NCBI RefSeq assembly: GCF_020085105.1
Contig: NC_058043.1
Location: 14,417,167-14,481,166, forward strand
From: Siniperca chuatsi
Lineage: Eukaryota; Chordata; Actinopteri; Centrarchiformes; Sinipercidae
Direction: 5' to 3'
DNA: 64,000 nucleotides
Shown: positions 2,732 to 64,000 of the stretch, in pieces
Position numbering within the stretch: position 1 is the stretch's first letter
Layout of the letters: every line of letters starts with the position of its first letter
The notes under the pieces: generated by a model
Database searches by the model: none
Told to the model about the DNA's origin: nothing
What the model saw: the letters and a program-made list of their open reading frames with translations, nothing else
Program-made: the position numbers and the translations under genes

Positions 2732-2852
2732 ATGAAAAAGTGGATTAATTTGGGATCCTATAATTGGAGGAGGCTTTCTACCATTCTTATAGTCCTTAGT
2801 TTCGTGGTCATCGTGCTCATTGCATTCTGTGTGTTGTTTGCACAAAAAAGAG
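2732..2852 (+). CDS. Mucin exon 1: start codon and signal sequence
   Basis: The ATG at 2732 opens a 40-codon exon: a basic, Trp-containing N-region (MKKWINLGSYNWRRLS) followed by about 22 strongly hydrophobic residues ending in FCVLFAQKR. It ends in the strong donor GTAAGT at 2853 in phase 1. The next exon starts at 3853 after a CAG acceptor in the matching phase, and its codons run into the array frame without a stop. I therefore prefer this start to the internal ATG at 3948, which would give no secretion signal. The long N-region leaves open a cleaved signal peptide or a signal anchor; a separate C-terminal transmembrane helix favours cleavage, perhaps after the Ala of CVLFA. Confidence 0.75.
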
Positions 2853-5800
2853 GTAAGTCTGTGATTTGTGTAATTTTTTAATGCTGAACCAGGTGAGCCA
2901 TACTCTCATTAATTTACTTAAGAATTATTTTGAATGTAACCCTCTTAACACTTATATCATTAGACAGTATATACTGTATATTTCCATTACATTTTCACAT
3001 GATTCATTTTAGTCTTGAAAATCCTTTAACAATAACTGCAATTAAAGCAGAAAGTACAAATAGAATGACTTTGCTCCTCGCTGTTAAAATGCACACTAAT
3101 CCTCACACAATACTTTATTTGTTATTTGTACTCAATATAGTACAAAGAGTTATTTTTGGAACATTAATGTTCATAAAAATGTGAATGTTAATGTTAGTCA
3201 TTTATTAGTTATTTTAATTTATAAGTCACCTGGAGTAATGTTTTATTGGATGCATTTTAAAAAGCTTATTCAAAAACCTGTTTTTGCAATTTTGCAATTA
3301 GTTCATTTTTTGACAACCAAACATAATCTCAGGCTTGGAGTGTAATTTTTTTCATAGAATAAGCAATACAGTTCACAGTTCAAACGGAAATAACTGATAC
3401 TAACTGTAGATTGACATTTTCAGTTAATAATTGAAGAAATTGAATGGTTTAAGAATACAAACATTACACAAGACACTAGATATGTGCCCGAGATAAGTAA
3501 AATATAGTGTATTCAACGTTAGAGGAAGGGATTTTCATTTTATATGATCTTAGTTATCAATATATTAAAACTGAGTCTAGAAGCCAGCCTCTGCACTACT
3601 GAAGATAAACAGAGTTAACACTGACAAAAATCTTCATTCAACAAGATTATATCGTGATTGTTAATTTTGCAGACAGAACTGACTAAGAAGGGATAGTTCC
3701 AAGGAAACATTGTTCAAACAATAAAAAAGACAGAAGAAAGTGTTAAATTTATGTTAACAGAAGTTTTGACATATTGCAAATGCAAATTGCAAATTGCTCT
3801 GAGGTGTACTAACAAATACATTTATCATGAAAAATATCGTCTTGTTTAACAGGAAATCAAAATGCAAAACAAGGTCAACCTGACGAAACATGGAGGAAAC
3901 CACAGATAACGGATAACCATAAAGGAAAGAATCTATCAAATCTGAACATGGAACTAAATGAGTTGTCAGACGTTTTGCAAATTAGACCAGTATTTAATGA
4001 CACAGACCAACAATATATGACTCAATCACTAGAATCACTGCAAATCATAATTAACAGCACGTCTACTCAGTCTCATACAAATAGCACGACTTTGACTCAT
4101 GCAAAATCAGTCATTCCTAATTCAGAAAAAATATCCTCAACGCATATGACAAAATCGGTAACCACCAAAGCATTTGCACCATCTTTCCCAGCTGATGAAT
4201 CAACAACTTACAATTCAATCACGAAGACCAAGATTATAACCTCAATAATCAAAAAAAATGGAGTAAAAGGAACTAATAACTCTGATTATTCCACAACAAC
4301 AATCAATTCCCTCAGAAATTCGGAAGATACACCCACTTCACCCTCTACATTCCCTCCATTAACGACTCATTTCACTCAAACATCTCATGAACAACAAACT
4401 GAAACAGCACCAAAAAGTACCAGCACAAGTCAGCTTCCACTAACTAGCCAGGAAACATCTACAACAATGATTTCCTTATCGACGGAACAACAATCTCGAT
4501 CTGCTACAATGGTGACACCCACAGGAACAACAGAATTAAAAGCCTCAACCTCTATGCTCAGCACAAATGGAGTAACAATAACTACCAACACTGATCATTC
4601 CACAACAACAATCAATTCCCTCACAAATACGGAGGATACAACCAGTTCACCCTCTACATTCCCTCCATTAACGACTCATTTCACTCAAACATCTCATGAA
4701 CAACAAACTGAAACAACACCAAAAAGTACCAGCACAAGTCAGCTTCCATTAACTAGCCAGGAAACATCTACAACAATGATGTCCTCACCCACAGAGCAAC
4801 AATCTACATCTGCTACAATGGTGACACCCACAGGAACAACCGACTTACCGGCCTCAACCTCAGCGCTCACCACAAATGGAGTAACAATAACTACCAGCAC
4901 TGATCATTACACAACAACAGTCAATTCCCTCACAAATACAGAAGATTTAACCAGTTCACCCTCAACACTTTCTCCATTAATGACTCATTTCACTCAAACA
5001 TCTCATGAACAACAAACTGAAACGACATCAAAAAGTACCAGCACAAGTCAGCTTCCATTAACTAGCCAGGAAACATCTACAACAATGAGGTCCTCACCCA
5101 CAGAGGAACAATCTACATCTGCTACAATGGTGACACCCACAGAAACCACAGAAATAACTCCCTCAACCTCAGCACTCACCACAAATGGAGTAACAATAAC
5201 TACCAACACTGATCATTCCACAACAACAATCAATTCCCTGACAAATACAGAAGATATAACCAGTTCACCCTCTACATTCCCTCCATTAACGACTCATTTC
5301 ACTCAAACATCTCATGAACAACAAACTGAAACAACACCAAAAAGTACCAGCACAAGTCAGCTTCCATTAACTAGCCAGGAAACATCTACAACAATGATGT
5401 CCTCACCCACAGAGCAACAATCTACATCTGCTACAATGGTGACACTCACAGGAACAACCGAATTAACAGCCTCAACCTCTATGCTCACCACAAATGGAGT
5501 AACAATAACTACCAACACCGATCATTCCACAACAACAATCAATTCCCTGACAAATACGGAAGATACAACCAGTTCACCCTCAACATTCCCTCCATTAACG
5601 ACTCATTTCACTCAAACATCTCATGAACAACAAACTGAAACAACACCAAAAAGTACCAGCACAAGTCAGCTTCCATTAACTAGCCAGGAAACATCTACAA
5701 CATTGATGTCCTCTCCCACAGAGCAACAATCTACGTCTGCTACAATGGTGACACCCACAGGAACAACCGACTTACCGGCCTCAACCTCAGCGCTCACCAC

Positions 5801-8800
5801 AAATGGAGTAACGCTAACTACCAACACTGATCATTCCACGACAACAATCAATTCCCTGACAAATACAGAAGATATAACCAATTCACCCTCTACATTCTCT
5901 CCATTAACAACTCATTTCACTCAAACATCTCATGAACAACAAACTGAAACAACACCAAAAAGTACCAGCACAAGTCAGCTTCCATTAACTAGCCAGGAAA
6001 CATCTACAACAATGATGTCCTCACCCACAGAGCAACAATCTACATCTGCTACAATGGTGACACCCACAGGAACAACCGACTTACCGGCCTCAACCTCAGC
6101 GCTCACCACAAATGGAGTAACAATAACTACCAACACTGATCATTCCACGACAACAATCAATTCCCTGACAAATACGGAAGATACAACCAGTTCACCCTCA
6201 ACATTCCCTCCATTAACGACTCATTTCACTCAAACATCTCATGAACAACAAACTGAAACAACACCAAAAAGTACCAGCACAAGTCAGCTTCCATTAACTA
6301 GCCAGGAAACATCTACAACAATGATGTCCTCACCCACAGAGCAACAATCTACATCTGCTACAATGGTGACACCCACAGGAACAACCGACTTACCGGCCTC
6401 AACCTCAGCGCTCACCACAAATGGAGTAACAATAACTACCAGCACTGATCATTCCACAACAACAATCAATTCCCTCATAAATACGGAAGATATAACCAAT
6501 TCACCCTCAACATTCCCTCCATTAACGACTCATTTCACTCAAACATCTCATGAACAACAAACTGAAACAACACCAAAAAGTACCAGCACAAGTCAGCTTC
6601 CATTAACTAGCCAGGAAACATCTACAACATTGATGTCCTCACCCACAGAGCAACAATCTACATCTGCTACAATGGTGACACCCACAGAAACAACAGAAAT
6701 AACAGCCTCAACCTCTACACTCACCACAAATGGAGTAACAATAACTTCCAACACTGATCATTCCACAACAACAATATCTTCCCTCACAAATACAGAGGAT
6801 ACAACCAGTTCACCCTCTACATTCCCTCCATTAACGACTCATTTCACTCAAACATCTCATGAACAACAAACTGAAACAACACCAAAAAGTACCAGCACAA
6901 GTCAGCTTCCATTAACTAGCCAGGAAACATCTACAACAATGATGTCCTCACCCACAGAGCAACAATCTACATCTGCTACAATGGTGACACCCACAGGAAC
7001 AACCGACTTACCGGCCTCAACCTCAGCGCTCACCACAAATGGAGTAACAATAACTACCAACACTGATCATTCCACGACAACAATCAATTCCCTGACAAAT
7101 ACAGAAGATATAACCAATTCACCCTCTACATTCTCTCCATTAACAACTCATTTCACTCAAACATCTCATGAACAACAAACTGAAACAACACCAAAAAGTA
7201 CCAGCACAAGTCAGCTTCCATTAACTAGCCAGGAAACATCTACAACAATGATGTCCTCACCCACAGAGCAACAATCTACATCTGCTACAATGGTGACACC
7301 CACAGAAACAACAGAAATAACTGCCTCAACCTCAGCGCTCACCACAAATGGAGTAACAATAACTACCAACACTGATCATTCCACAACAACAATCAATTCC
7401 CTGACAAATACGGAAGATACAACCAGTTCACCCTCAACATTCCCTCCATTAACGACTCATTTCACTCAAACATCTCATGAACAACAAACTGAAACAACAC
7501 CAAAAAGTACCAGCACAAGTCAGCTTCCATTAACTAGCCAGGAAACATCTACAACAATGATGTCCTCACCCACAGAGCAACAATCTACATCTGCTACAAT
7601 GGTGACACCCACAGGAACAACCGACTTACCTGCCTCAACCTCAGCGCTCACCACAAATGGAGTAACAATAACTACCAGCACTGATCATTCCACAACAACA
7701 ATCAATTCCCTGACAAATACGGAAGATACAACCAGTTCACCCTCAACATTCCCTCCATTAACGACTCATTTCACTCAAACATCTCATGAACAACAAACTG
7801 AAACAACACCAAAAAGTACCAGCACAAGTCAGCTTCCATTAACTAGCCAGGAAACATCTACAACAATGATGTCCTCACCCACAGAGCAACAATCTACATC
7901 TGCTACAATGGTGACACCCACAGGAACAACCGACTTACCGGCCTCAACCTCAGCGCTCACCACAAATGGACTAACAATAACTTCCAACACTGATCATTCC
8001 ACAACAACAATATCTTCCCTCACAAATACAGAGGATACAACCAGTTCACCCTCTACATTCCCTCCATTAACGACTCATTTCACTCAAACATCTCATGAAC
8101 AACAAACTGAAACAACACCAAAAAGGAGCAGCACAAGTCAGCTTCCATTGACTAGCCAGGAAACATCTACAACAATGATGTCCTCACCCACAGAGCAACA
8201 ATCTACATCTGCTACAATGGTGACACCCACAGGAACAACCGACTTACCGGCCTCAACCTCAGCGCTCACCACAAATGGAGTAACAATAACTACCAACACT
8301 GATCATTCCACGACAACAATCAATTCCCTGACAAATACAGAAGATATAACCAGTTCACCCTCTACATTCCCCCCATTAACGACTCATTTCACTCAAACAT
8401 CTCATGAACAACAAACTGAAACAACACCAAAAAGTACCAGCACTAGTCAGCTTCCATTAACTAGCCAGGAAACATCTACAACAATGATGTCCTCACCCAC
8501 AGAGCAACAATCTACATCTGCTACAATGGTGACACCCACAGGAACAACCGACTTACCGGCCTCAACCTCAGCGCTCACCACAAATGGAGTAACAATAACT
8601 ACCAGCACTGATCATTCCACAACAACAATCAATTCCCTGACAAATACGGAAGATACAACCAGTTCACCCTCAACATTCCCTCCATTAACGACTCATTTCA
8701 CTCAAACATCTCATGAACAACAAACTGAAACAACACCAAAAAGTACCAGCACAAGTCAGCTTCCATTAACTAGCCAGGAAACATCTACAACAATGATTTC

Positions 8801-11800
8801 CTCACCCACAGAGCAACAATCTACATCTGCTACAATGGTGACACCCACAGAAACAACAGAAATAACAGCCTCAACCTCTATGCTCACCACAAATGGAGAA
8901 ACAATAATTACCAACACTGATCATTCCACGACAACAATCAATTCCCTGACAAATACAGAAGATATAACCAATTCACCCTCTACATTCTCTCCATTAACAA
9001 CTCATTTCACTCAAACATCTCATGAACAACAAACTGAAACAACACCAAAAAGTACCAGCACAAGTCAGCTTCCATTAACTAGCCAGGAAACATCTACAAC
9101 AATGATGTCCTCACCCACAGAGCAACAATCTACATCTGCTACAATGGTGACACCCACAGGAACAACCGACTTACCGGCCTCAACCTCAGCGCTCACCACA
9201 AATGGAGTAACAATAAATACCAGCACTGATCATTCCACAACAACAATCAATTCCCTGACAAATACGGAAGATACAACCAGTTCACCCTCAACATTCCCTC
9301 CATTAACGACTCATTTCACTCAAACATCTCATGAACAACAAACTGAAACAACACCAAAAAGTACCAGCACAAGTCAGCTTCCATTAACTAGCCAGGAAAC
9401 ATCTACAACAATGATGTCCTCACCCACAGAGCAACAATCTACATCTGCTACAATGGTGACACCCACAGGAACAACCGACTTACCGGCCTCAACCTCAGCG
9501 CTCACCACAAATGGAGTAACAATAACTACCAACACTGATCATTCCACGACAACAATCAATTCCCTGACAAATACGGAAGATACAACCAGTTCACCCTCTA
9601 CATTCCCTCCATTAACGACTCATTTCACTCAAACATCTCATGAACAACAAACTGAAACAACACCAAAAAGTACCAGCACAAGTCAGCTTCCATTAACTAG
9701 CCAGGAAACATCTACAACAATGATGTCCTCACCCACAGAGCAACAATCTACATCTGCTACAATGGTGACACCCACAGAAACAACAGAAATAACAGCCTCA
9801 ACCTCTACACTCACCACAAATGGAGTAACAATAACTACCAGCACTGATCATTCCACGACAACAATCAATTCCCTGACAAATACAGAAGATATAACCAATT
9901 CACCCTCTACATTCTCTCCATTAACAACTCATTTCACTCAAACATCTCATGAACAACAAACTGAAACAACACCAAAAAGTACCAGCACAAGTCAGCTTCC
10001 ATTAACTAGCCAGGAAACATCTACAACAATGATGTCCTCACCCACAGAGCAACAATCTACATCTGCTACAATGGTGACACCCACAGGAACAACCGACTTA
10101 CCGGCCTCAACCTCAGCGCTCACCACAAATGGAGTAACAATAAATACCAGCACTGATCATTCCACAACAACAATCAATTCCCTCACAAATACGGAAGATA
10201 CAACCAGTTCACCCTCAACATTCCCTCCATTAACGACTCATTTCACTCAAACATCTCATGAACAACAAACTGAAACAACACCGAAAAGTACCAGCACAAG
10301 TCAGCTTCCATTAACTAGCCAGGAAACATCTACAACAATGATGTCCTCACCCACAGAGCAACAATCTACATCTGCTACAATGGTGACACCCACAGGAACA
10401 ACCGACTTACAGCCTCAACCTCAGCGCTCACCACAAATGGAGTAACAATAACTACCAGCACTGATCATTCCACAACAACAATCAATTCCCTCACAAATAC
10501 AGAAGATATAACCAGTTCACCCTCTACATTCCCTCCATTAACGACTCATTTCACTCAAACATCTCATGAACAACAAACTGAAACAACACCAAAAAGTACC
10601 AGCACAAGTCAGCTTCCATTAACTAGCCAGGAAACATCTACAACAATGATGTCCTCACCCACAGAGCAACAATCTACATCTGCTACAATGGTGACACCCA
10701 CAGGAACAACCGACTTACGGCCTCAACCTCAGCGCTCACCACAAATGGAGTAACAATAACTACCAGCACTGATCATTCCACAACAACAATCAATTCCTCA
10801 CAAATACGGAAGATACAACCAGTTCACCCTCAACATTCCCTCCATTAACAACTCATTTCACTCAAACATCTCATGAACAACAAACTGAAACAACACCAAA
10901 AAGTACCAGCACAAGTCAGCTTCCATTAACTAGCCAGGAAACATCTACAACAATGATGTCCTCACCCACAGAGCAACAATCTACATCTGCTACAATGGTG
11001 ACACCCACAGGAACAACCGACTTACTGGCCTCAACCTCAGCGCTCACCACAAATGGAGTAACAATAACTACCAGCACTGATTATTCCACAACAACAATCA
11101 ATTCCCTCACAAATACAGAAGATATAACCAGTTCACCCTCTACATTCCCCACATTAACGACTCATTTCACTCAAACATCTCATGAACAACAAACTGAAAC
11201 AACACCAAAAAGTACCAGCACTAGTCAGCTTCCATTAACTAGCCAGGAAACATCTACAACAATGATGTCCTCACCCACAGAGCAACAATCTACATCTGCT
11301 ACAATGGTGACACCCACAGGAACAACCGACTTACCGGCCTCAACCTCAGCGCTCACCACAAATGGAGTAACAATAAATACCAGCACTGATCATTCCACAA
11401 CAACAATCAATTCCCTGACAAATACGGAAGATACAACCAGTTCACCCTCAACATTCCCTCCATTAACGACTCATTTCACTCAAACATCTCATGAACAACA
11501 AACTGAAACAACACCAAAAAGTACCAGCACAAGTCAGCTTCCATTAACTAGCCAGGAAACATCTACAACAATGATGTCCTCACCCACAGAGCAACAATCT
11601 ACATCTGCTACAATGGTGACACCCACAGAAACAACAGAAATAACAGCCTCAACCTCTACACTCACCACAAATGGAGTAACAATAACTACCAGCACTGATC
11701 ATTCCACGACAACAATCAATTCCCTGACAAATACAGAAGATATAACCAGTTCACCCTCTACATTCTCTCCATTAACAACTCATCTCACTCAAACATCTCA

Positions 11801-14800
11801 TGAACAACAAACTGAAACAACACCAAAAAGTACCAGCACAAGTCAGCTTCCATTAACTAGCCAGGAAACATCTACAACAATGATGTCCTCACCCACAGAG
11901 CAACAATCTACATCTGCCACAATGTTGACACCCACAGGAACAACTGACTTACCGGCCTCAACCTCAGCGCTCACCACAAATGGAGTAACAATAACTACCA
12001 ACACTGATCATTCCACGACAACAATCAATTCCCTGACAAATACAGAAGATATAACCAATTCACCCTCTACATTCTCTCCATTAACAACTCATTTCACTCA
12101 AACATCTCATGAACAACAAACTGAAACAACACCAAAAAGTACCAGCACAAGTCAGCTTCCATTAACTAGCCAGGAAACATCTACAACAATGATGTCCTCA
12201 CCCACAGAGCAACAATCTACATCTGCTACAATGGTGACACCCACAGGAACAACCGACTTACCGGCCTCAACCTCAGCGCTCACCACAAATGGAGTAACAA
12301 TAACTACCAGCACTGATCATTCCACAACAACAATCAATTCCCTCACAAATACAGAAGATATAACCAGTTCACCCTCTACATTCCCCCCATTAACGACTCA
12401 TTTCACTCAAACATCTCATGAACAACAAACTGAAACAACACCAAAAAGTACCAGCACAAGTCAGCTTCCATTAACTAGCCAGGAAACATCTACAACAATG
12501 ATGTCCTCACCCACAGAGCAACAATCTACATCTGCTACAATGGTGACACCCACAGGAACAACCGACTTACCGGCCTCAACCTCAGCGCTCACCACAAATG
12601 GAGTAACAATAAATACCAACACTGATCATTCCACAACAACAATCAATTCCCTGACAAATACGGAAGATACAACCAGTTCACCCTCAACATTCCCTCCATT
12701 AACGACTCATTTCACTCAAACATCTCATGAACAACAAACTGAAACAACACCAAAAAGTACCAGCACAAGTCAGCTTCCATTAACTAGCCAGGAAACATCT
12801 ACAACAATGATGTCCTCACCCACAGAGCAACAATCTACATCTGCTACAATGGTGACACCCACAGAAACAACAGAAATAACAGCCTCCACCTCTATGCTCA
12901 CCACAAATGGAGAAACAATAATTACCAGCACTGATCATTCCACGACAACAATCAATTCCCTGACAAATACAGAAGATATAACCAATTCACCCTCTACATT
13001 CTCTCCATTAACGACTCATTTCACTCAAACATCTCATGAACAACAAACTGAAACAACACCAAAAAGTACCAGCACAAGTCAGCTTCCATTAACTAGCCAG
13101 GAAACATCTACAACATTGATTTCCTCACCCACAGAGCAACAATCTACATCTGCTACAATGGTGACACCCACAGAAACAACAGAAATAACAGCCTCAACCT
13201 CAGCGCTCACCACAAATGGAGTAACAATAACTACCAACACTGATCATTCCACAACAACAATCAATTCCCTGACAAATACGGAAGATACAACCAGTTCACC
13301 CTCAACATTCCCTCCATTAACAACTCATTTCACTCAAACATCTCATGAACAACAAACTGAAACAACACCAAAAAGTACCAGCACAAGTCAGCTTCCATTA
13401 ACTAGCCAGGAAACATCTACAACAATGATTTCCTCACCCACAGAGCAACAATCTACATCTGCTACAATGGTGACACCCACAGGAACAACCGACTTACCGG
13501 CCTCAACCTCAGCGCTCACCACAAATGGAGTAACAATAACTACCAGCACTGATCATTCCACAACAACAATCAATTCCCTGACAAATACAGAAGATATAAC
13601 CAGTTCACCCTCTACATTCCCCCCATTAACGACTCATTTCACTCAAACATCTCATGAACAACAAACTGAAACAACACCAAAAAGTACCAGCACAAGTCAG
13701 CTTCCATTAACTAGCCAGGAAACATCTACAACAATGATGTCCTCACCCACAGAGCAACAATCTACATCTGCTACAATGGTGACACCCACAGGAACAACCG
13801 ACTTACCGGCCTCAACCTCAACGCTCACCACAAATGGAGTAACAATAACTACCAACACTGATCATTCCACAACAACAATCAATTCCCTCTGACAAATACG
13901 GAAGATACAACCAGTTCACCCTCAACATTCCCTCCATTAACGACTCATTTCACTCAAACATCTCATGAACAACAAACTGAAACAACACCAAAAAGTACCA
14001 GCACAAGTCAGCTTCCATTAACTAGCCAGGAAACATCTACAACAATGATGTCCTCACCCACAGAGCAACAATCTACATCTGCTACAATGGTGACACCCAC
14101 AGAAACAACAGAAATAACAGCCTCAACCTCTACACTCACCACAAATGGAGTAACAATAACTACCAGCACTGATCATTCCACGACAACAATCAATTCCTGA
14201 CAAATACAGAAGATATAACCAATTCACCCTCTACATTCTCTCCATTAACAACTCATTTCACTCAAATATCTCATGAACAACAAACTGAAACAACACCAAA
14301 AAGTACCAGCACTAGTCAGCTTCCATTAACTAGCCAGGAAACATCTACAACAATGATGTCCTCACCCACAGAGCAACAATCTACATCTGCTACAATGGTG
14401 ACACCCACAGGAACAACAGAAATAACAGCCTCAACCTCAGCGCTCACCACAAATGGAGTAACAATAACTACCAGCACTGATCATTCCACGACAACAATCA
14501 ATTCCCTGACAAATACGGAAGATACAACCAGTTCACCCTCAACATTCCCTCCATTAACAACTCATTTCACTCAAACATCTCATGAACAACAAACTGAAAC
14601 AACACCAAAAAGTACCAGCACAAGTCAGCTTCCATTAACTAGCCAGGAAACATCTACAACAATGATTTCCTCACCCACAGAGCAACAATCTACATCTGCT
14701 ACAATGGTGACACCCACAGGAACAACAGAAATACAGCCTCAACCTCAGCACTCACCACAAATGGAGTAACAATAACTACCAGCACTGATCATTCCACAAC

Positions 14801-17800
14801 AACAATCAATTCCCTGACAAATACAGAAGATATAACCAGTTCACCCTCTACATTCCCTCCATTAACGACTCATTTCACTCAAACATCTCATGAACAACAA
14901 ACTGAAACAACACCAAAAAGTACCAGCACAAGTCAGCTTCCATTAACTAGCCAGGAAACATCTACAACAATGATGTCCTCACCCACAGAGCAACAATCTA
15001 CATCTGCTACAATGGTGACACCCACAGGAACAACCGACTTACCGGCCTCAACCTCAGCGCTCACCACAAATGGAGTAACAATAACTACCAACACTGATCA
15101 TTCCACAACAACAATCAATTCCCTCACAAATACGGAAGATACAACCAGTTCACCCTCAACATTCCCTCCATTAACGACTCATTTCACTCAAACATCTCAT
15201 GAACAACAAACTGAAACAACACCAAAAAGTACCAGCACAAGTCAGCTTCCATTAACTAGCCAGGAAACATCTACAACAATGATGTCCTCACCCACAGAGC
15301 AACAATCTACATCTGCTACAATGGTGACACCCACAGAAACAACAGAAATAACAGCCTCAACCTCTACACTCACCACAAATGGAGTAACAATAACTACCAG
15401 CACTGATCATTCCACGACAACAATCAATTCCCTGACAAATACGGAAGATACAACCAGTTCACCCTCAACATTCCCTCCATTAACAACTCATTTCACTCAA
15501 ACATCTCATGAACAACAAACTGAAACAACACCAAAAAGTACCAGCACAAGTCAGCTTCCATTAACTAGCCAGGAAACATCTACAACAATGATGTCCTCAC
15601 CCACAGAGCAACAATCTACATCTGCTACAATGGTGACACCCACAGGAACAACCGACTTACTGGCCTCAACCTCAGCGCTCACCACAAATGGAGTAACAAT
15701 AACTACCAGCACTGATCATTCCACAACAACAATCAATTTCTGACAAATACAGAAGATATAACCAATTCACCCTCTACATTCTCTCCATTAACAACTCATT
15801 TCACTCAAACATCTCATGAACAACTAACTGAAACAACACCAAAAGGTACCAGCACAAGTCAGCTTCCATTAACTAGCCAGGAAACATCTACAACAATGAT
15901 GTCCTCACCCACAGAGCAACAATCTACATCTGCTACAATGGTGACACCCACAGGAACAACCGACTTACCAGCCTCAACCTCAGCGCTCACCACAAATGGA
16001 GTAACAATAACTACCAACACTGATCATTCCACGACAACAATCAATTCCCTGACAAATACAGAAGATATAACCAATTCACCCTCTACATTCTCTCCATTAA
16101 CAACTCATTTCACTCAAACATCTCATGAACAACAAACTGAAACAACACCAAAAAGTACCAGCACAAGTCAGCTTCCATTAACTAGCCAGGAAACATCTAC
16201 AACAATGATGTCCTCACCCACAGAGCAACAATCTACATCTGCTACAATGGTGACACCCACAGAAACAACAGAAATAACTGCCTCAACCTCAGCGCTCACC
16301 ACAAATGGAGTAACAATAACTACCAACACTGATCATTCCACAACAACAATCAATTCCCTCACAAATACGGAAGATACAACCAGTTCACCCTCAACATTCC
16401 CTCCATTAACGACTCATTTCACTCAAACATCTCATGAACAACAAACTGAAACAACACCAAAAAGTACCAGCACAAGTCAGCTTCCATTAACTAGCCAGGA
16501 AACATCTACAACAATGATTTCCTCACCCACAGAGCAACAATCTACATCTGCTACAATGGTGACACCCACAGAAACAACAGAAATAACAGCCTCAACCTCT
16601 ACACTCACCACAAATGGAGTAACAATAACTACCAGCACTGATCATTCCACGACAACAATCAATTCCCTGACAAATACAGAAGATATAACCAATTCACCCT
16701 CTACATTCTCTCCATTAACAACTCATTTCACTCAAACATCTCATGAACAACAAACTGAAACAACACCAAAAAGTACCAGCACTAGTCAGCTTCCATTAAC
16801 TAGCCAGGAAACATCTACAACAATGATGTCCTCACCCACAGAGCAACAATCTACATCTGCTACAATGGTGACACCCACAGGAACAACCGACTTACCGGCC
16901 TCAACCTCAGCGCTCACCACAAATGGAGTAACAATAAATACCAACACTGATCATTCCACAACAACAATCAATTCCCTGACAAATACGGAAGATACAACCA
17001 GTTCACCCTCAACATTCCCTCCATTAACGACTCATTTCACTCAAACATCTCATGAACAACAAACTGAAACAACACCAAAAAGTACCAGCACAAGTCAGCT
17101 TCCATTAACTAGCCAGGAAACATCTACAACAATGATTTCCTCACCCACAGAGCAACAATCTACATCTGCTACAATGGTGACACCCACAGAAACAACAGAA
17201 ATAACAGCCTCAACCTCTATGCTCACCACAAATGGAGTAACAATAAATACCAGCACTGATCATTCCACAACAACAATCAATTCCCTGACAAATACGGAAG
17301 ATACAACCAGTTCACCCTCTACATTCTCTCCAATAACAACTCATTCCACTCAAACATGTCATGAACAACAAACTGAAACAACATCAAAAAGTACCAGCAC
17401 TAGTCAGCTTCCATTAACTAGCCAGGAAACATCTACAACAATGATGTCCTCACCCACAGAGCAACAATCTACATCTGCTACAATGGTGACACCCACAGGA
17501 ACAACCGACTTACCGGCCTCAACCTCAGCGCTCACCACAAATGGAGTAACAATAAATACCAGCACTGATCATTCCACAACAACAATCAATTCCCTGACAA
17601 ATACGGAAGATACAACCAGTTCACCCTCAACATTCCCTCCATTAACGACTCATTTCACTCAAACATCTCATGAACAACAAACTGAAACAACATCAAAAAG
17701 TACCAGCACAAGTCAGCTTCCATTAACTAGCCAGGAAACATCTACAACAATTATCTCCTCACCCACAGAGCAACAATCTACATCTGCTACAATGGTGACA

Positions 17801-20800
17801 CCCACAGGAACAACCGACTTACCGGCCTCAACCTCAGCGCTCACCACAAATGGAGTAACAATACCTACCAACACTGATCATTCCACAACAATTAATACCC
17901 TCACAAATACCGAATTTACAACCAGTCCTCCCACAACTTCAAAACACACAGCACAGACTGTGACATCAACTTTCAGCTCCACAATCACAACTAATTTTGT
18001 GACACCAACTTTTACACCTACCTCTACTGTCAATCCAAACTCAAATACTACTGCTACAATTCATACACCTTCTACAGTGTCCTCCAACATAACACCTTTG
18101 ACGCAGCCTACTGCTGCACCCACAAGTGAATCAACATCAAAGGAAATATCAAGTAGCAGTCCACAAACATCTTCCCTAACTACACCAACTTCAAAGGTTT
18201 TGACGTCAGCAGAAATCATCAGCACAAACACACTTACTACAGTTAGTCATTCAACATCTACTATTACCCTCCTTTCAAATGCCACCGTCACTTTGACAAC
18301 ATCATCTACAACTCCTCAGTGTAGAGATAAGGACTGTCCTGGGTGTACTGGTACCTGTATATTCAACACGACACTTGGAGGATGCAACTGCCTTTGTCAA
18401 GATTTCGTCTTTGGAAATGTTTGCACTCTTGGACAGAATGACACCTCTGCTCATATTGGTGAGGTTTTTCATCCCCAAATTTATTTCTTCAAAATATTCT
18501 ATTAGCTTAAAATAATTTTTGAATGCAGAGATAAGTTATAGGCTTTTAGCATAATGTGCATTTGGGATTTGTATGCTTTTGGCACTGATATTTGTGTTGA
18601 ATGTAAAATGTTATCGCAATGTCAATATAAGGGTATCATCATTTTTTGCAGATACCGAAGAAATACCAACTCGAAAGGCTAATTTTACTTTGGCATTAAA
18701 CGTCACTTTTCAGGATGCTTATAACAATTTAAGCTCACCTCAATCAGTGGAATTCATCAAGACATTAGAACGGGAGGTAGATTTTTAGTTTTTTTTTCAT
18801 TGTTGCATGACTTCATGATTATTACACAATGATCCAATTTCAGAGTATTTACTCATGTATTATAACTTATTAGTGAGTAATTAATTTCCAGGCAACAATT
18901 ACAATACTTAATACAACATACAGATTTTTTATATCATTTGTGCTTTGCACTCTGTTTTTGATAATATTCAAAAATGTGGATTTATTGCCATAACCATGCT
19001 ATAATAACATCTGTCCTGTGTTCCAGCTCGAAGTCCTATGCAACGAAGCAGATCCACAAAGCTTTAAGAAAGTACAAGTCATCAAATTGTCGTAGGTTTT
19101 TATTCAGCTTCACTGATTATTTAAATTACGTTTTAATCAAGTACAATCTGTTTTCTTTTGGTAATATCTTTCTATTTTTCTACTGTAGACCAGGAAGTGT
19201 TGTAGCAGAGAGCGCGGCAGAGTACGTCTATGCAAACAATGAAACTCAAATCCAGTTTGTCAACACTCAGCTTGATGGGGTGTTGACTGGTATCTTGAAT
19301 GACAAAAGTAACCTCAATAAGATTTCTCAGGCCTTTCATAATGCAAGTGTGCAGTTAAATGGACTCACCTTCCAGCCACCTGAGATTAAAAGTAGGTGTA
19401 CTATATGTCAGTTCTAATCATGCTTATTTGACTTATTGCTGCTTTGCACATTCAGTGTTTCTTCATTTAATATTTGTCAAAATCTCCATATTTGTATTAT
19501 GGTACAAAATTATAAATGCATCACTTTTTTTATCAATCAGATATCACAGACCTGAAGCCTTTTGTTAACTGCACTCAGTTTGCTAATTACACTGCTGAGA
19601 TTAGTAATGGTCAATGGCAGTGTGTTGGACCGTGCAAAACAAACCCTGATTACTGTCATCAACATGGAGAATGTGACAATAACATTTACAAAGGGCCTGT
19701 CTGTAGGTAAGCCAAAACATCTGTTTTTATTTTAATTGCAAGGAGCTTAGATACAGTGGTGTGAAAAAAGTGTTTGCCCCCTGCCTGATTACTTAATTTT
19801 TTGCATGTTTGTCACACTTAAATGTTTCAGATCATCAAACATATTTAAATATTAGTAAAAGATAACACAAGTAAACACAAAATGCAGTTTTCAAATGAAG
19901 GTTGTTTATTATTAAGGAAAAAAATCCAAACCTACATGGCCCTGTTGTTGCTACATGCCACCCTTAGCAGCAACAACTGCAATCAAGTGTTTGCGATAAC
20001 TTGCAATGCGTCTTTTACAGCACTGTGGAGGAATTTTGGCCCACTCATCTTTGCAGAATTGTTGTAATTCAGCCACATTGGAGGGTTTTCGAGCATGAAA
20101 TGCCTTTTTAAGGTCATCCCATAGCATCTCAATAGGATTCAGGTCAGGACTTCACTAGGCCACTCCAAAGTCTTCATTTTGTTCTTCTTCAGCCATTCAG
20201 AGGTGGACTTACTGGTGTGTTTTGGATCATTGTCCTGCTGCAGAACCCAAGTTTGCTTCAGCTTGAGGTCACGATTAGATGGCCGGACATTCTCCTTCAG
20301 GAGTTTTTGGTAGACAGCAGAAGTCATGGTTCCATTTATCACAGCAAGTCTTCCAGGTCCTGAAGCAGCAAAACAGCCCCAGACCATCACACTACGACCA
20401 CCATATTTTAATGTTCTTTTTCTGAAATGCGGTGTTACTTTCACGCCAGATGTAATGGGACACACACCTGATTTAAGTGATTTCTTGACTGAGAACATGT
20501 GTGGCAATAATCAGGCCTGGGTGTGGCTAGAGAAATTGAACTCAGGTGTGAATAACCACAGTTATGTTTTAACAGGTGGGGCAATCACTTTTTCACACAG
20601 GGTCATGTGGGTTTGGATTTTGTTTTCCCTTAATAATAACAACCTTCATTTAAAAACTGCATTTTGTGTTTACTTGTGTTATCTTTGACTAATATTTAAA
20701 TTTGTTTGATGATCTGAAACATTTAAGTGTGACAAACATGCAAAAAAATAAGCAATCAGGAAGGGGGCAAACACTTTTTCATACCACTGTATGTCTAATA

Positions 20801-21571
20801 TGTTTGTTCATATTATTCATATTATTAACATAATTCACTCTTGTGGCCCTTCAACCCAGATGCTTCGAGTCTAGCCTGGAGCAGTTTTATGGCCCACAGT
20901 GTGACCTCTTCCGTCGGGGTCCAGGTTTCTATGGAGCACTGTTTGGATCATTGGCAGCAGCACTCATGCTCTTGATCGTCATTGTCATTGCTGTCACTGT
21001 CAAAAAGAAACATATGGGTGTTTGGTGGGTTATGATGCCTTAAATGCACATGTTTATTTCTTGTTGCCTGTAATCATAAAGTTAAAAACATTGCCATGTA
21101 AAACTAATGAAACTGTCTCAATTTTAGGAAAAGAAACAGCTCTTTTACCAGAAGACTGTCTGCTTTTGAGGAAGATTTCTTTGACTTCTCTGATGCAGGT
21201 CTGTCCTGGTCTGTTTTGTTAGTAATCACTGATCTATTTTAAAAATTCAGTAAACAATTTCTCAGCAAGGACTCTTACATTTGCTGTTTCAACATTATCA
21301 TATTCTTTTCCCCAGGACATCACAACTTTGGAATTGCAGGCAATTACAAATCAGAGGGTTTTAGTCCAAGTCTACAAAATGTTGACACTCAATTGCAAGT
21401 ATTCTTGTTTACTATTCTGGTATTACATACAGTTACAAACATACAATACCTATGAAAGTCTTCTGGAGTACAAGGACAGATAAATGTAAGATCATAGTTC
21501 AAATGTTGATCCTTCTTTTGTATTTCCAGGTCACAACAAAACATCCAGATGTTTTGAACATCAACCCCTAG
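2732..21571 (+). CDS. Giant transmembrane mucin (Ser/Thr array, EGF-SEA-EGF-TM), ten coding exons
   Basis: A large membrane-tethered mucin, expected to form a densely O-glycosylated barrier on epithelial surfaces. Coding exons inferred from splice consensus and matching phase: 2732-2852, 3853-18458, 18652-18776, 19027-19091, 19189-19391, 19541-19706, 20860-21024, 21128-21198, 21316-21398, 21530-21571 (stop TAG 21569-21571). Protein order: hydrophobic signal segment, about 135 unique residues, about 44 repeats of 103 residues, a further Ser/Thr-rich stretch, EGF-like, SEA with a GSVV cleavage-type motif, a second EGF-like, one transmembrane helix, and a cytoplasmic tail of about 70 residues, roughly 5,200 residues in all. 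The EGF-SEA-EGF-TM order matches the MUC3/12/13/17 group; orthology to any one member cannot be decided here. The exon-2 frame is interrupted seven times by small indels (separate entry), probably consensus errors, but real decay is not excluded. The gene converges on errfi1. Confidence 0.85.
2853..3852 (+). other. Mucin intron 1
   Basis: An AT-rich 1.0-kb intron bounded by GTAAGT and a CAG acceptor. It contains only a chance open frame (84 codons, low complexity, hydrophobic). No repeat element was recognised. Confidence 0.65.
3853..18458 (+). CDS. Mucin exon 2: giant single exon with unique N-terminus, repeat array and first EGF-like domain
   Basis: This 14.6-kb exon starts after the CAG acceptor ending at 3852 and ends at a GTGAGG donor at 18459 in phase 1. 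Positions 3855-4257 encode a unique region with several N-glycosylation sequons and a gradual rise in Ser/Thr. The tandem array fills about 4258-17920. Positions 17921-18319 encode a non-repeated Ser/Thr/Pro-rich linker. Positions 18320-18424 hold eight cysteines in an EGF-like arrangement (CRDKDCPGCTGTC then GGCNCLC and NVC) with sequons NTT and NDT. Seven indels between 10.4 and 15.8 kb shift the frame by a net -4, so the exon begins in one frame and ends in another. Large single mucin exons are normal for this family. Confidence 0.85.
4258..17920 (+). repeat. 309-bp tandem array, about 44 copies (103-residue Ser/Thr mucin repeat)
   Basis: The period is 309 bp: the conserved GTCCTCACCC element is at 4781 and 5090, and the ATGGAG element at 4258 and 17850 lies 13,592 bp apart, which is 44 periods minus the net 4-nt indel loss. 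By my count one typical unit has 35 Thr and 17 Ser in 103 residues (about half), no Cys and no N-glycosylation sequon, so it is built for O-glycans. Most units are nearly identical in DNA, with a few diagnostic variants (GTTDLPASTSAL or ETTEITASTS; DTTSSPSTFPP or DITNSPSTFSP; NTDH or STDH). The first units and the last are the most diverged. Copy number in an assembly of such sequence is uncertain. Confidence 0.95.
10405..15745 (+). other. Seven frame-breaking indels clustered in the mucin array
   Basis: Compared with neighbouring units, single bases are missing near 10411, 10718, 10797, 14197, 14732 and 15739, and two bases are added near 13889. The sum is -4. After the first three (-3) the original frame returns, and after the last the frame matches the downstream EGF/SEA exons. 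All seven fall at two homologous positions of the 309-bp unit: the TTACCGGCC/ATAACAGCC site and the AATTCCCTG/AATTCCCTC site, both of which differ between unit subtypes. This pattern suits consensus errors between near-identical repeats better than random pseudogene decay. Confidence 0.85.
18652..19391 (+). CDS. Mucin exons 3-5: SEA domain
   Basis: Three exons (18652-18776, 19027-19091, 19189-19391) joined in phases 1, 0 and 2. They encode FTLALNVTFQDAYNNLSSPQ, then LEVLCNEADPQSFKKVQ, then a segment with SPGSVVAESAAEY, and end near LNGLTFQPPEIK. This is the pattern of a SEA domain: an opening beta strand, helices, and a G-SVV turn where MUC1-type SEA domains undergo autoproteolysis. The serine before PGSVV is encoded across the exon 4/5 junction, so correct splicing is needed to build the cleavage loop. 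Five sequons (NFT, NVT, NLS, NET, NAS) are present. The exon 4 donor (GTAGGT at 19092) was chosen because it keeps this motif in frame. Confidence 0.8.
19541..19706 (+). CDS. Mucin exon 6: post-SEA linker and first part of second EGF-like domain
   Basis: The exon follows a TCAATCAG acceptor and ends at GTAAGC (19707) in phase 2. It encodes NITDLKPFVNCTQFANYT, then WQCVGPCKTNPDYCHQHGEC and ends in GPVCR. The HGEC element and cysteine spacing are typical of EGF-like domains next to SEA in membrane mucins. The domain is completed by exon 7, on the far side of a transposon-bearing intron. Confidence 0.8.
19754..20789 (-). mobile_element. Defective Tc1-like transposon in the mucin intron, 1036 bp, antisense
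   Basis: The element is bounded by TA on both sides (19752-19753 and 20790-20791), the Tc1/mariner target. Its terminal inverted repeats are about 190 bp (19754-19945 and 20598-20789), starting CAGTGGTGTGAAAAAAGTG at the left and ending in the complement of CAGTGGTATGAAAAAGTG. Inside, on the minus strand, is the C-terminal part of a Tc1 transposase. Its frame at 20139-20507 holds VMVWGCFAASGPGRL and VLQQDNDPKHTSK (the second catalytic Asp region), then shifts frame at WPSEVLT. The remaining C-terminal codons, with SPDLNPIE and ending AAKGGM, continue in another frame down to about 19960. The N-terminal DNA-binding half is absent, so the copy cannot move by itself. Confidence 0.9.
20860..21024 (+). 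CDS. Mucin exon 7: end of EGF-like domain and transmembrane helix
   Basis: The exon starts after the ACCCAG acceptor at 20859 and ends at GTGGGT (21025) in phase 2. It encodes CFESSLEQFYGPQCDLFRR, closing the second EGF-like domain, then a hydrophobic span of about 25 residues (FYGALFGSLAAALMLL followed by IVIVIAVTV) and the basic stop-transfer KKKHMGVW. The nearer GT at 21018 would put a stop in the next exon, so 21025 is preferred. Confidence 0.8.
21128..21571 (+). CDS. Mucin exons 8-10: cytoplasmic tail and stop
   Basis: Exons 21128-21198, 21316-21398 and 21530-21571 join in frame (phases 2, 1, 0). They encode KRNSSFTRRLSAFEEDFFDF, then GHHNFGIAGNYKSEGFSPSL, then VTTKHPDVLNINP and TAG. 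RRLS fits the basophilic kinase consensus R-R-x-S, the following stretch is acidic and aromatic, and one Tyr is present. Short tails with FG-rich and F-x-P-x-L elements are familiar in membrane mucins, but I do not recognise a specific ortholog. The last exon is short and less certain than the others. Confidence 0.65.
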
Positions 21572-27153: not shown

Positions 27154-28268
27154 TCAAACTAAATCCACATGTGCTTTCCTCCTGGTGTGGCAGTCCCAGT
27201 CTGAGTCTGATACATCTGTATTGCGAGCTGCAGGTCTGTCCATGACTCGAAGAAATTTCTCTACACAAGGTGAGTCCACGAAAGCAGGCCGCTGAGGCAG
27301 GAGATAGTAATGTGTGGTGCTGGCTTTCTTGCCATTCTCCATAACAGGAAGGATGCAGGGGGAGCCCTCACTGTTCTGTCTCTGTAAACCCCGACAGCTT
27401 ACGTACTTAGGATCTGGTGCAAAGCTTTGGGTTGGAGGCATCACCCCATTTATGTATGTTGGGAGGCTCTTGGGGCTGGGGGTGCGTGAGCTGCCTCTGG
27501 ACAAAGGTTCCCTTGGGGGCACCTTGGGTGGTTTGTCCTCATCGCTGTAAGCCCCAGACGAGACTTCTGCTGACCAGCGGCGGTAGTCTCCTGTCTTGAT
27601 CGTTCGTGGAGGAATAGGGGGTGGCACCTCAGGCTTATCCATACAGTGGGTGTAGCGTTTGTGGCACGTGAGGCGCAGCAGCGAGGGCTTGTTAAAGGAT
27701 CCAGCTGGGCCAGAGTGTGAGCGCCGCAGCCTCCTCTGAGCTTTGTCCTGCTGTCTCTGACAGACCACTGGCTCAGGTGGTTCCTGTCGCTGCTGCTCAT
27801 ACTGTTCCCGCACTTCCTGTGGAGGAAGTGTCTGATGCTGCTGTTGGGACGGCTTTGGGCTTTGCGGTCCTAATGGGCCGTCATAGTAAGCGTAGTTAAT
27901 CTGCCCGCAGTCCCTGAAGCTCCTTCGACTGGGGACTACATAACGAAAAGGAGACGATTTGGGATACTGATCAGACACCAGGCAGCAGCTGTCGTCCGAA
28001 CTTGTGAAAAATTCTACCTCATTGTCCATAGCCTGCTCAGTGGAGATGTCGGTTTGTGGAGGGATGGGGGGCAGAGGCTTGGAGCATCTGCCTGGTGTCT
28101 GTGGTGGACTGCTGCACTCATAAACCGAGAGCCTCTGGAATGAGGGGACCACCTGGTCGTCATCAGCAGGACTTGGGGTGGATGGTTCAGCACTGCAGGA
28201 CAGGGAGAGATGGGAGGGCCGGGATTTCTTTGGAGGTAATCTCTGTGAGCTGGGACTGTGTTTATGTC
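27154..28268 (-). CDS. errfi1: errfi1 last coding exon
   Basis: It follows the CTCTCTGACAG acceptor (minus strand, AG at 28270-28269) and carries 370 of 439 residues, including all recognisable functional motifs. It opens [20 protein letters not shown] and ends KAHVDLV. Open frame continues upstream into the intron to 28305, so the splice junction, not the longest frame, defines the exon. One large terminal coding exon is the normal arrangement of this gene. Confidence 0.92.
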
Positions 28269-28913
28269 CTGTCAGAGAGGAAAAATAAAAAAAAATAAGC
28301 ATCATATTAATGGCATGGACAATTGCCCTTTACTACTACAACTTCATTGTATCCTGTAAAAAAGGACTCCTGTGGATTACTAGCTTTCTCTATATTTCTG
28401 GAAAACCACTTACTATATGCAGTAAGTAGCAGATGATTGAAAAGGCACAACACATGCAATGCAGCATTTGTGTATTTCAGAAGACCTGCACTGTGCAGAT
28501 GACAGATCATGCACTTACTTTCATAACTTAGAGACAGTGGAGGTGGCCCTTTTTGCTGGGCACGTGAGCTGTGATCTGTGTGTGCAGTGTCCATACTGAA
28601 GTAGAAGCTATTAAAAAAAGAAACATTTGATTAGTACCAGTTTAAATAAGCCACATTAACATTTCATTGTACTTTACAAGAAATCTCAGACTGACCTGAA
28701 CCATAAAACTTCAGCATGTCATGCAGATTTGTAAAAACGCCCCTTTCTAAAAATGAACTACTAGTCCTGGCACCTGAACACTCACTTGTCCAGCTCATGG
28801 CGATAGCTCCAAGAGGGTTTGGATCCAGCCATGCTGTGACAGTAGCTGCCCCTCAGGAAGGGGTTTTCTATGGGAAAAGAGATCTCCTGGGCAGTCAGGC
28901 CCACTGTGGACAT
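27154..28913 (-). CDS. errfi1: ERBB receptor feedback inhibitor 1 (MIG6/RALT)
   Basis: A cytosolic scaffold induced by growth factors that binds activated EGFR/ErbB kinases, blocks the asymmetric dimer and promotes receptor turnover. Coding exons on the minus strand: 28913-28786, 28595-28519, 28268-27154; 439 residues against 462 in human. The N-terminus [20 protein letters not shown] matches the vertebrate start. Also visible: DPKYVS within [11 protein letters not shown] (kinase-binding segment), [10 protein letters not shown] (the tyrosine pair phosphorylated in the inhibitory motif), proline SH3-type motifs ([23 protein letters not shown]) and the basic [15 protein letters not shown] (a 14-3-3/Chk1-type site). 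A Gln-rich insertion ([20 protein letters not shown]) precedes the basic motif. Splice junctions and phases 2 and 1 agree. Whether this is the a or b paralog of teleosts cannot be decided. Confidence 0.95.
28519..28595 (-). CDS. errfi1: errfi1 third exon (second coding)
   Basis: A 77-bp exon between a CTACTTCAG acceptor and a GTAAGT donor on the minus strand. It encodes [20 protein letters not shown] then LSLSYE. Phases 2 (in) and 1 (out) agree with both neighbours. It corresponds in position to the mammalian segment with DPITMAYSLNSSAQ. Confidence 0.85.

Positions 28914-46986: not shown

Positions 46987-47034
<48 letters not shown>
46986..47034. repeat. CA microsatellite
   Basis: An uninterrupted dinucleotide CA run of about 24 units. 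It creates spurious Cys-Val frames on the minus strand. Confidence 0.95.
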
Positions 47035-48880: not shown

Positions 48881-49456
48881 CTATATGTCCAAAAAAGTAT
48901 GGACACCTGATCAAACTATGTGTATAACTAAACATTACACCCATATGTGATTGTTGAACATCTCTTTTCAGGATCATGGGCATTAATATGCTGCTGTGAC
49001 AGCCTCCACTCCTCTCCGAAGGCTTTCCATAGGATTTTAGAGCCTGGCTGTGGGGATTTGTTCACCTTCAGCCACAGGAGCATTAGTGAGGTCAGGTAGT
49101 GAAGGATACGCCCTGGTTTGTATTCAAATTGATGTTCCAATTCATCCCAAAGGTGATGGATAGGGTTAGAGACAGGGCTCTGTGCAGGCCAGTTGATCAC
49201 GGACATCTTTTAAATCATTTCTCAAAACTTATCTTTTAAAAAAAGCTTTTTATTAATTCTAGCACATTGGGTATTTTATTCCATTTTAATGTAGTTGTAT
49301 AAAATAATTATTTTAGTTGTCTGATTTTATTTGTTTCATTGCAATGAAATGTTTTAATCCTGGTCCAACCATATAAAGCACTTAGTAACTTTGTTTTGTA
49401 AAGTGCTGTATAAATTACATTAAATTATTATTATAAACTTTTGGACATGGAGTAAT
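48881..49456 (-). mobile_element. Degenerate Tc1/mariner element interrupted by a second repeat
   Basis: The left end TACTATATGTCCAAAAAAGT has an inverted partner near 49436-49456 (complement of CTCCATGTCCAAAAGTTTA). A minus-strand frame at 48928-49206 carries WPAQSPVSNPIHHLWDELE, the conserved C-terminal catalytic motif of Tc1-type transposases, with substitutions at the expected Asp and Glu. The interval 49205-49433 is unlike this family and looks like a later retroelement tail. Confidence 0.7.
49205..49433 (+). repeat. Retroelement-like tail nested in the Tc1 remnant
   Basis: AT-rich segment ending TTGTAAAGTGCTGTATAAAT then ACATTAAATTATTATTA, a common fish LINE/SINE tail motif with an AT-rich simple end. 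It separates the Tc1 coding remnant from its right terminus, which implies later insertion. Confidence 0.5.
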
Positions 49457-63600: not shown

Positions 63601-64000
63601 GGTGATGCAAACCATGCATCACTTCCAGTCATGGTTTGATTTGATTTCTAGATGCGCTTGTTAATCAAACCAAATTTCCTGTTTTCTGACTCATAGAGGA
63701 CATCCAGTGCAAGAAGTGCCCTGAGGGTCAATGGTCTCTGAACAGCAGCACTAATTGCACTGAACCCACCTTTGACGTTTTGTCCTGGGACACACCTGAG
63801 GCTCTGGAAATGATGCTGGCCGGGGTGCTGCTGCTGGTATGTCAGGGGTCAGTGGGTGTTATGTTCCTGAAACACCGGGGGACCCTATTGGTAAAGGCCT
63901 CAGGGGGAGCCCTGAGTTTTGTAGCTCTGCTAAGCCTGATGGGAGCTTGCCTCAGTCTGCTGCTCTTCCTGGGCCAGCCAGGGGACGTGGTGTGTCGTCT
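60629..64000 (+). CDS. tas1r3: Taste receptor type 1 member 3, truncated by window end
   Basis: A class C GPCR that pairs with T1R1 or T1R2 to form amino-acid and sugar taste receptors. Exons: 60629-60825, 60955-61255, 61679-62035, 62139-62555, 62660-62863, 63028-63148, 63697 to window end; all phases agree. ATG 60629 gives a signal peptide (MTAPFILLVMCWAFRLSC); an in-frame upstream ATG at 60524 would bury it. Ligand-binding module: GDIMLGGLFPINKL, LLPGFKLGYQIYDTC, SAVIGPYSSE, FFLMPQISFGATSDKFS, PSFFRTVPSDKWQ, NWNWVAVVGSEEEYG, TAFSVYAAIYSVAQALHN. Cysteine-rich domain with nine Cys: STCSAKCGRGQVRRVKGFHS onward. TM1 and TM2 follow with VKASGGALSF and CLSLLLFLGQPG, which resemble T1R3 more than T1R1 or T1R2. 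The rest of the membrane domain lies outside the window. Confidence 0.92.
61679..62555 (+). CDS. tas1r3: tas1r3 exons 3 and 4, split by an extra 103-bp intron
   Basis: Exon 3 (61679-62035, 119 codons) ends AEPAEVFFKE with donor GTTAGT. Exon 4 (62139-62555, 139 codons) begins VIRRNVTGVWIASTSWA after TATTCCAG. In mammalian T1R genes this stretch is one exon of about the same total length. The intervening 103 bp contain in-frame stops (TTTTAA shortly after the donor), so it must be spliced. Both sides are phase 0. Confidence 0.85.
63192..63599. mobile_element. TTAA-flanked inverted-repeat element (MITE) in the tas1r3 intron
   Basis: Begins TTAAAGAAATAGTGCAACAT and ends in the complement of TTAAAGGAATAGTTCAACAT; the inverted ends match over about 50 bp with some differences. 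TTAA is present at both limits, as with piggyBac-type insertions, though class is not proven. There is no transposase frame. It lies between the exons for the two halves of the cysteine-rich domain. Related fragments are at 35012-35190 and 35712-35757. Confidence 0.75.

Follow-up and report, generated by a model that had tools for sequence, protein, structure and literature searches.

MUC16 is a very long membrane mucin, and MUC17 is built from a repeat unit of 59 residues. Published accounts describe several systems close to the gene discussed below. In the MUC3 cluster, the repeat unit of MUC3 has 17 residues, exon 2 of MUC3A measures 15,873 bp, the C-terminus is of the class I PDZ-binding type, and the flanking genes are ACHE, TRIM56 and SERPINE1 (PMC9578598). 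MUC16 contains multiple SEA domains (PMC1552070), and I-Muc of the gilthead sea bream is a membrane mucin with a SEA domain and a short tail, to which its description assigns no clear mammalian orthologue (PMC3680472). Homologues of MUC3, MUC12 and MUC17 were seemingly missing from fishes in a 2006 account (PMC1552070), and an origin of the MUC3 cluster in amphibians was suggested in 2022 (PMC9578598). Here we examine a tandem repeat array, and the gene that appears to surround it, in the fish Siniperca chuatsi (assembly GCF_020085105.1, 719 Mb in 65 contigs). The window, i.e., the whole stretch of DNA analysed, is 64,000 nucleotides long and lies on the 35.7-Mb contig NC_058043.1 (forward-strand positions 14,417,167 to 14,481,166); positions below are counted from its first letter.

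We consider it likely that the array codes for the proline-, threonine- and serine-rich (PTS) region of a MUC17-like membrane mucin of the SEA type, with units homogenised by exchange and with seven frameshifting indels that are most likely errors of the consensus. The proposed identity relies on the Pfam score of the SEA domain, on EGF-like cysteines, on a membrane span and on a MUC17-like tail.

The repeat array

Tandem Repeats Finder reports a single tandem array at 4256-17926, with a period of 309, 44.3 copies and 95% matches, and cutting with a fuzzy anchor resolves it into 44 complete units of 309 bp, the copy number of the original prediction, and a partial one of 78 bp. Forty-four copies of a 309-bp unit are far beyond chance. 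The consensus unit encodes 103 residues, including 35 Thr, 18 Ser and 8 Pro. Ser and Thr, which had been put at about half, make up 51.5%, at the upper end of the 25-52% range given for human mucins (PMC13345508, section 7); with Pro the share rises to 59%, i.e., this is a Ser/Thr/Pro-rich repeat of the kind expected in a SEA-type membrane mucin. The whole array is contained in one modelled exon of 14,606 bp (3853-18458), with AG before its first base and GT after its last. The earlier proposal of a mucin array in a single exon is supported, and the surrounding gene can now be described. In size this exon is comparable to exon 2 of MUC3A. No name had been known for the repeat, and this fits the Pfam search of the 5' 20 units, which gave nothing except a DUF4620 score (31.6 bits in total, with no stretch passing singly); we reject membership in that family.

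A gene model with SEA domain, membrane span and MUC17-like tail

Three exons 3' of the array, when joined, encode a stretch of 131 residues that, given alone to Pfam, matches SEA (PF01390) with 29.0 bits against a cut-off of 26.4, placing a SEA domain between the repeats and the membrane. The third of these exons starts with PGSVVA, which we take to resemble the SEA cleavage motif. EGF-like cysteines are encoded 3' of the SEA exons, and a membrane span (hydropathy 2.94 over 19 residues) is followed by a short tail. At the other end of the model, the candidate first exon contains a 19-residue stretch with hydropathy of 3.48, and its phase fits the frame at 3853, the model reading through to residue 2,238. 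This long hydrophobic stretch comes after basic residues and may be an uncleaved signal anchor instead of a signal that is cut off; in a type I mucin this, if real, would be out of the ordinary.

The tail was compared with the C-terminal peptide of human MUC17 as printed in PMC6705488, which was the only mucin tail used. The last 23 residues of the model align with this peptide without gaps at a BLOSUM62 score of 31, against a mean of -15.9 (standard deviation 10) for shuffles, and 2 of 100,000 shuffles reach that score (P = 2e-5); at each of the 52 remaining offsets along the final 75 residues, the score is -1 or below. It is over these 23 residues that the homologous cytoplasmic tail expected in the MUC3/12/17 group is observed.

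Other mucin types were also considered. Pfam reports no SEA domain at E up to 1 in 3831-10445 (units 1-20), and one SEA stretch is seen 3' of the array; with no SEA reported in units 1-20, a MUC16-like mucin with repeated SEA domains is rejected. The VWD domains of gel-forming mucins are absent from the parts given to Pfam, which exclude the units after 10445, the last 66 residues of the tail and the DNA upstream of 2732.

Several observations weigh against the identification. The exons, from 3853 to the stop at 21571 and including the candidate first exon, were placed by hand from AG-GT borders and are predictions. The SEA domain goes unreported at E up to 1 when a longer query is given to Pfam, phmmer against PDB finds no SEA chain, and the EGF_2 match of the EGF-like exon (14.4 bits) is below its cut-off of 22.1. 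The resemblance to MUC17 played a part in the choice of the tail frames, chiefly of the donor at 21024, which weakens the test, more for the upstream tail than for the final 23 residues. At its end the model has NINP, which is not the class I PDZ-binding end of MUC3/12/17. Constraint on the sequence of the repeat is weak, the ratio of nonsynonymous to synonymous variation (pN/pS) over distinct variants being 0.72 (0.60 without units 1 and 3). Finally, the first stop in the 5' frame is met at 10443, i.e., at residue 2,238 of the model as assembled.

If the frame is whole, the predicted protein would be a long rod with about 4,560 residues of repeat, sugar-coated on the presumption that the gene is expressed and its repeats O-glycosylated. 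The rod would be held at the epithelial surface by the SEA domain (presumably self-cutting, with the halves staying joined), the EGF-like segments, one membrane span and the short tail, and may form a glycocalyx that shields the cell from microbes and debris.

Table 1. Features of the predicted mucin gene and its repeat array in the window
Feature	Position	Strand	Basis
First coding exon (candidate), with ATG, GT donor at 2853 and hydrophobic stretch as signal peptide or anchor	2732..2852	+	placed by hand
PTS exon, 14,606 bp: unique 5' part, array, unique Ser/Thr-rich 3' part, cysteine-rich EGF-like segment	3853..18458	+	AG acceptor, GT donor
Array, 44 full 309-bp units and 78-bp partial unit	4256..17926	+	Tandem Repeats Finder, unit cutting
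Units 20-22, each 1 base short	10127..11050	+	unit cutting
Units 22-44, 4-unit (1,236-bp) period	10743..17847	+	lag analysis, block-type count
Units 32 (2 bases long), 33 and 34 (each 1 base short)	13832..14758	+	unit cutting
Unit 38, 1 base short; frame stays unrestored 3' of it	15686..15993	+	unit cutting, open reading frames
SEA exon 1	18652..18776	+	splice signals, joined SEA score
SEA exon 2	19027..19091	+	splice signals, joined SEA score
SEA exon 3, starts PGSVVA	19189..19391	+	splice signals, joined SEA score
EGF-like exon	19541..19706	+	splice signals, sub-threshold EGF_2
Membrane-span exon	20860..21024	+	19-residue hydropathy 2.94
Cytoplasmic tail exon 1	21128..21198	+	splice signals, frame
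Cytoplasmic tail exon 2	21316..21398	+	splice signals, frame
Last coding exon with stop; with tail exon 2 gives the MUC17-like last 23 residues	21530..21571	+	MUC17 peptide comparison

Frameshifts in the assembled array

As assembled, the array is not the continuous coding domain of about 4,500 residues that had been proposed. The 5' frame is open over 3831-10445 (2,204 open codons), and seven of the 44 units contain frameshifting indels: six are 308 bp long (units 20, 21, 22, 33, 34 and 38, each lacking one base), and one, unit 32, has two extra bases and measures 311 bp. An uninterrupted frame through the repeats, which a SEA-type membrane mucin should have, is thus not seen in the assembled sequence, possibly through assembly error. 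With the frame closing at 10443 and seven units bearing indels, this sequence does not encode some 4,500 continuous residues, and a domain of that length holds only if all seven indels are assembly errors.

The distribution of the indels is peculiar. Three of the six deletions fall at alignment column 286 and three at column 55, and the insertion adjoins column 55; none of 100,000 random draws produced two columns each taking three of the seven indels. Units sharing a deletion are no more alike than trios drawn at random (on average 9.3 and 12.0 differences, with 11.4 and 11.5 for the random trios; P = 0.29 and 0.57), and the carriers are bunched in neighbouring units (four adjacent pairs, P = 0.003). 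Column 286 is one at which unit types differ: the missing base is C in units 20 and 21 (C-type to the left of the column) and A in unit 34 (A-type there), and unit 20 is a mixture of the C-type and the A-type. Recurrence at the same columns in units that are not closely related, the bunching, and the mixing of types at column 286 suggest that the seven frameshifting indels are probably consensus errors, with reads or alleles mixed in a repeat that is hard to assemble; this is unproven.

Such mixing may have extended beyond the indels. We regard it as a serious possibility, if one we are inclined to doubt, that the mosaic of the units is partly made by the assembly, reads of different units or alleles having been combined in the consensus, so that the short-range shuffling described below would not be biology. 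The deletions at a column where unit types differ and the bunching of the indels agree with this, as does the manual curation that mucin repeat exons required in human work (PMC13345508, section 5); a 4-unit period (see below) nevertheless survives in the array, and singleton variants are evenly spread along the unit.

Should the frameshifts be real, which we think unlikely, the locus would hold a decaying gene or an allele that is null or truncated, with a product that ends at residue 2,238 and lacks the SEA domain, the membrane span and the tail. The lengths of the seven units and the stop at 10443 are what such a gene would display, and true frame loss has been reported for a human mucin repeat exon, that of MUC19 (PMC13345508, section 5). 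Against it are the same columns being struck in units not closely related, the bunching of the carriers, the open frames of the other exons, and the fact that all 44 units are open in their local frame. When the consensus letter is put into alignment gaps, none of the 44 has a stop, against 3.2 stop-bearing units expected from random placement of the 94 distinct variants (P of none 0.046).

How the units are kept alike

The units had been called near-identical, which is too strong: two units differ on average by 4.2% (3.7% when units 1 and 3 are left out), and one pair of the 946 is identical. Unit 1 (32 of 309 bases off the consensus) and the terminal stub (8 of 78) are the most divergent, followed by unit 3 (24 bases), and units 2 and 44 are near the consensus (3 and 5 differences). 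In about half of human mucins, the ends of the array are reported to be more degenerate (PMC13345508, section 7).

Association between common variants fades within about 60 bp, mean r2 being 0.375 at distances up to 30 bp, 0.071 at 31-60 bp, 0.04-0.05 at 61-309 bp and 0.025-0.031 farther away. Neighbouring units resemble each other slightly less than random pairs do, with a lag-1 ratio of 1.139 (permutation mean 1.002, standard deviation 0.054). Near-copy blocks are rejected as proof of recent block duplication, the best matches of two, three and four units being reached by 0.34, 0.39 and 0.41 of shuffled orders. In units 22-44, there is a 4-unit (1,236-bp) period: lags 4, 8 and 12 average 8.4, 8.3 and 9.1 differences against 11.9, with a p, corrected for choice of the best lag, of 0.006 in these units (a split chosen post hoc) and 0.02 in the whole array. 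One right-hand block type occupies five of five units of one phase against 4 of the 18 others (phase chosen post hoc). Units 1-22 have no 4-unit period (lag-4 z 0.03; corrected p of the best lag 0.17).

Recent or continuing unequal exchange had been deduced from the homogeneity of the array. As stated, this is weak in view of the lag-1 ratio and of block matches no better than in shuffled orders, but the 4-unit period in units 22-44 preserves a trace of block exchange. We infer that some block exchange did take place. On top of it came either short exchanges or consensus mixing, which these data do not separate. From the variant pattern, which consensus mixing could blur, the units are probably kept alike by short-tract exchange between units at any distance, joined in the 3' half by some exchange of 4-unit blocks.

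Seven toy models of array evolution, with 10 runs each and unfitted parameters, were compared with the array. Homogeneity from unequal crossing over alone, i.e., from gain and loss of whole units or blocks, seems quite improbable to us. The three models of pure unequal exchange give lag-1 ratios of 0.36, 0.85 and 0.90 (standard deviation 0.11-0.14) against the observed 1.14, the last two being within about two standard deviations; their association at 61-120 bp is 0.17-0.28, with 0.047 observed; and the near-perfect two-unit copies that they predict are not seen. On all three counts conversion between units at any distance comes closer, and a model of conversion between near neighbours gives a lag-1 ratio of 0.56. 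The 4-unit period of the 3' half and the position of the most divergent sequences, in unit 1 and the last stub, are nonetheless in line with unequal crossing over. So is the association within 30 bp (0.47 observed), which the unequal-exchange models match (0.39-0.47) and the any-distance conversion models under-predict (0.10-0.18), to the detriment of the short-tract exchange that we favour. The observed 26 singleton columns are reproduced by no model (means 6-18).

A non-coding, satellite-like DNA that is open by accident would suit the broken frame and the weak constraint, but the period divisible by three, the half share of Ser and Thr, the 2,204 open codons on the 5' side and the in-phase SEA and membrane-span exons make it exceedingly improbable, and we reject it for a Ser/Thr-rich open unit inside a gene with SEA exons after it.

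Variation in copy number, also part of the original prediction, is plausible by analogy with human mucins (PMC13345508). A separate observation concerns the middle half of the unit, which is avoided by variants common to at least two units: 4 of 35 such columns are within codons 38-88 (limits chosen post hoc), and a scan of every possible window, with units 1 and 3 left out, yields p 0.0005, which becomes 0.037 once linked columns are merged. Singletons show no such avoidance (28 of 51; scan p 0.74). A more recent common ancestor of this segment is possible.

Genomic neighbourhood

An ERRFI1 (Mig-6) coding exon lies 3' of the mucin gene on the minus strand (27157-28329; Pfam, 31.5 bits against a cut-off of 25), and a taste-receptor-like class C receptor gene with Pfam matches to ANF_receptor and 7tm_3 occupies 60911-63998. 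The 5 kb directly upstream of the window (positions 5001-10000 of piece L001) read as N, which may be an assembly gap, and beyond them two minus-strand exons encode a PAX paired domain (381-1704 of upstream piece L002). The combination of PAX and a class C receptor resembles the surroundings of human PAX7 and TAS1R2. The neighbours identified (PAX, ERRFI1 and the receptor) are in keeping with a vertebrate genome; ACHE, TRIM56 and SERPINE1 were not searched by name.

The intron between the EGF-like and membrane-span exons contains, at 19765-20779, what its sequence indicates is a Tc1-like transposon remnant, with 160-nt inverted ends that are 92% complementary and a minus-strand DDE_3 match of 16.2 bits, below the cut-off of 28.6. 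A short minus-strand open reading frame at 48931-49209 (DDE_3, 12.9 bits, below cut-off) is perhaps another Tc1-like fragment. There is a perfect (AC)n microsatellite of 23.5 copies at 46988-47034, and a search of the window with 4227 Rfam families gave no match at the gathering score.

Comparison with known mucins

The presence in a fish of a gene that combines SEA with a MUC17-like tail bears on the question of when such surface mucins arose, and the array is a suitable coding repeat on which to tell unequal crossing over and conversion apart. It is also a warning that assembled repeat exons may contain false frameshifts. Otherwise this is an ordinary mucin repeat exon, large yet of usual size for its kind, and its frame breaks have to be dealt with before any claim about length; we make no claim that a fish gene of MUC17 type is unreported. 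A broader interpretation is offered tentatively, and we hold it with less than even confidence: the locus may be a fish MUC3/12/17-type membrane mucin in a PAX-ERRFI1-taste-receptor-like neighbourhood, with its own 103-residue repeat and no PDZ anchor; in this reading its array, with a nested repeat of four units, would be homogenised chiefly through conversion of short tracts between units far apart, and not through simple unit gain and loss. If a true mucin of this type is present in fish, the group predates the amphibian origin proposed for the MUC3 cluster.

Among described systems, Muc13 is similar in combining SEA, EGF and PTS regions on a membrane mucin, but chicken and zebrafish Muc13 have several PTS exons in place of the one seen here, and HEG is adjacent to Muc13 in chicken and mammals (PMC1552070), where other neighbours were identified at this locus, HEG not having been searched by name. 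I-Muc of the sea bream, known from a partial transcript and compared here by its description, is likewise a membrane mucin of a fish that combines SEA with a short tail. The MUC3 cluster differs in its class I PDZ end, in its neighbours as far as those of the present locus were identified, and in the 17-residue unit of MUC3, against 103 residues here. In overall architecture, the gene is most readily compared with human MUC17, MUC12, MUC3A and MUC3B, which share one giant PTS exon, SEA, an EGF-like segment and a membrane span; it resembles MUC3A in its share of Ser and Thr, and MUC17 in its last 23 residues.

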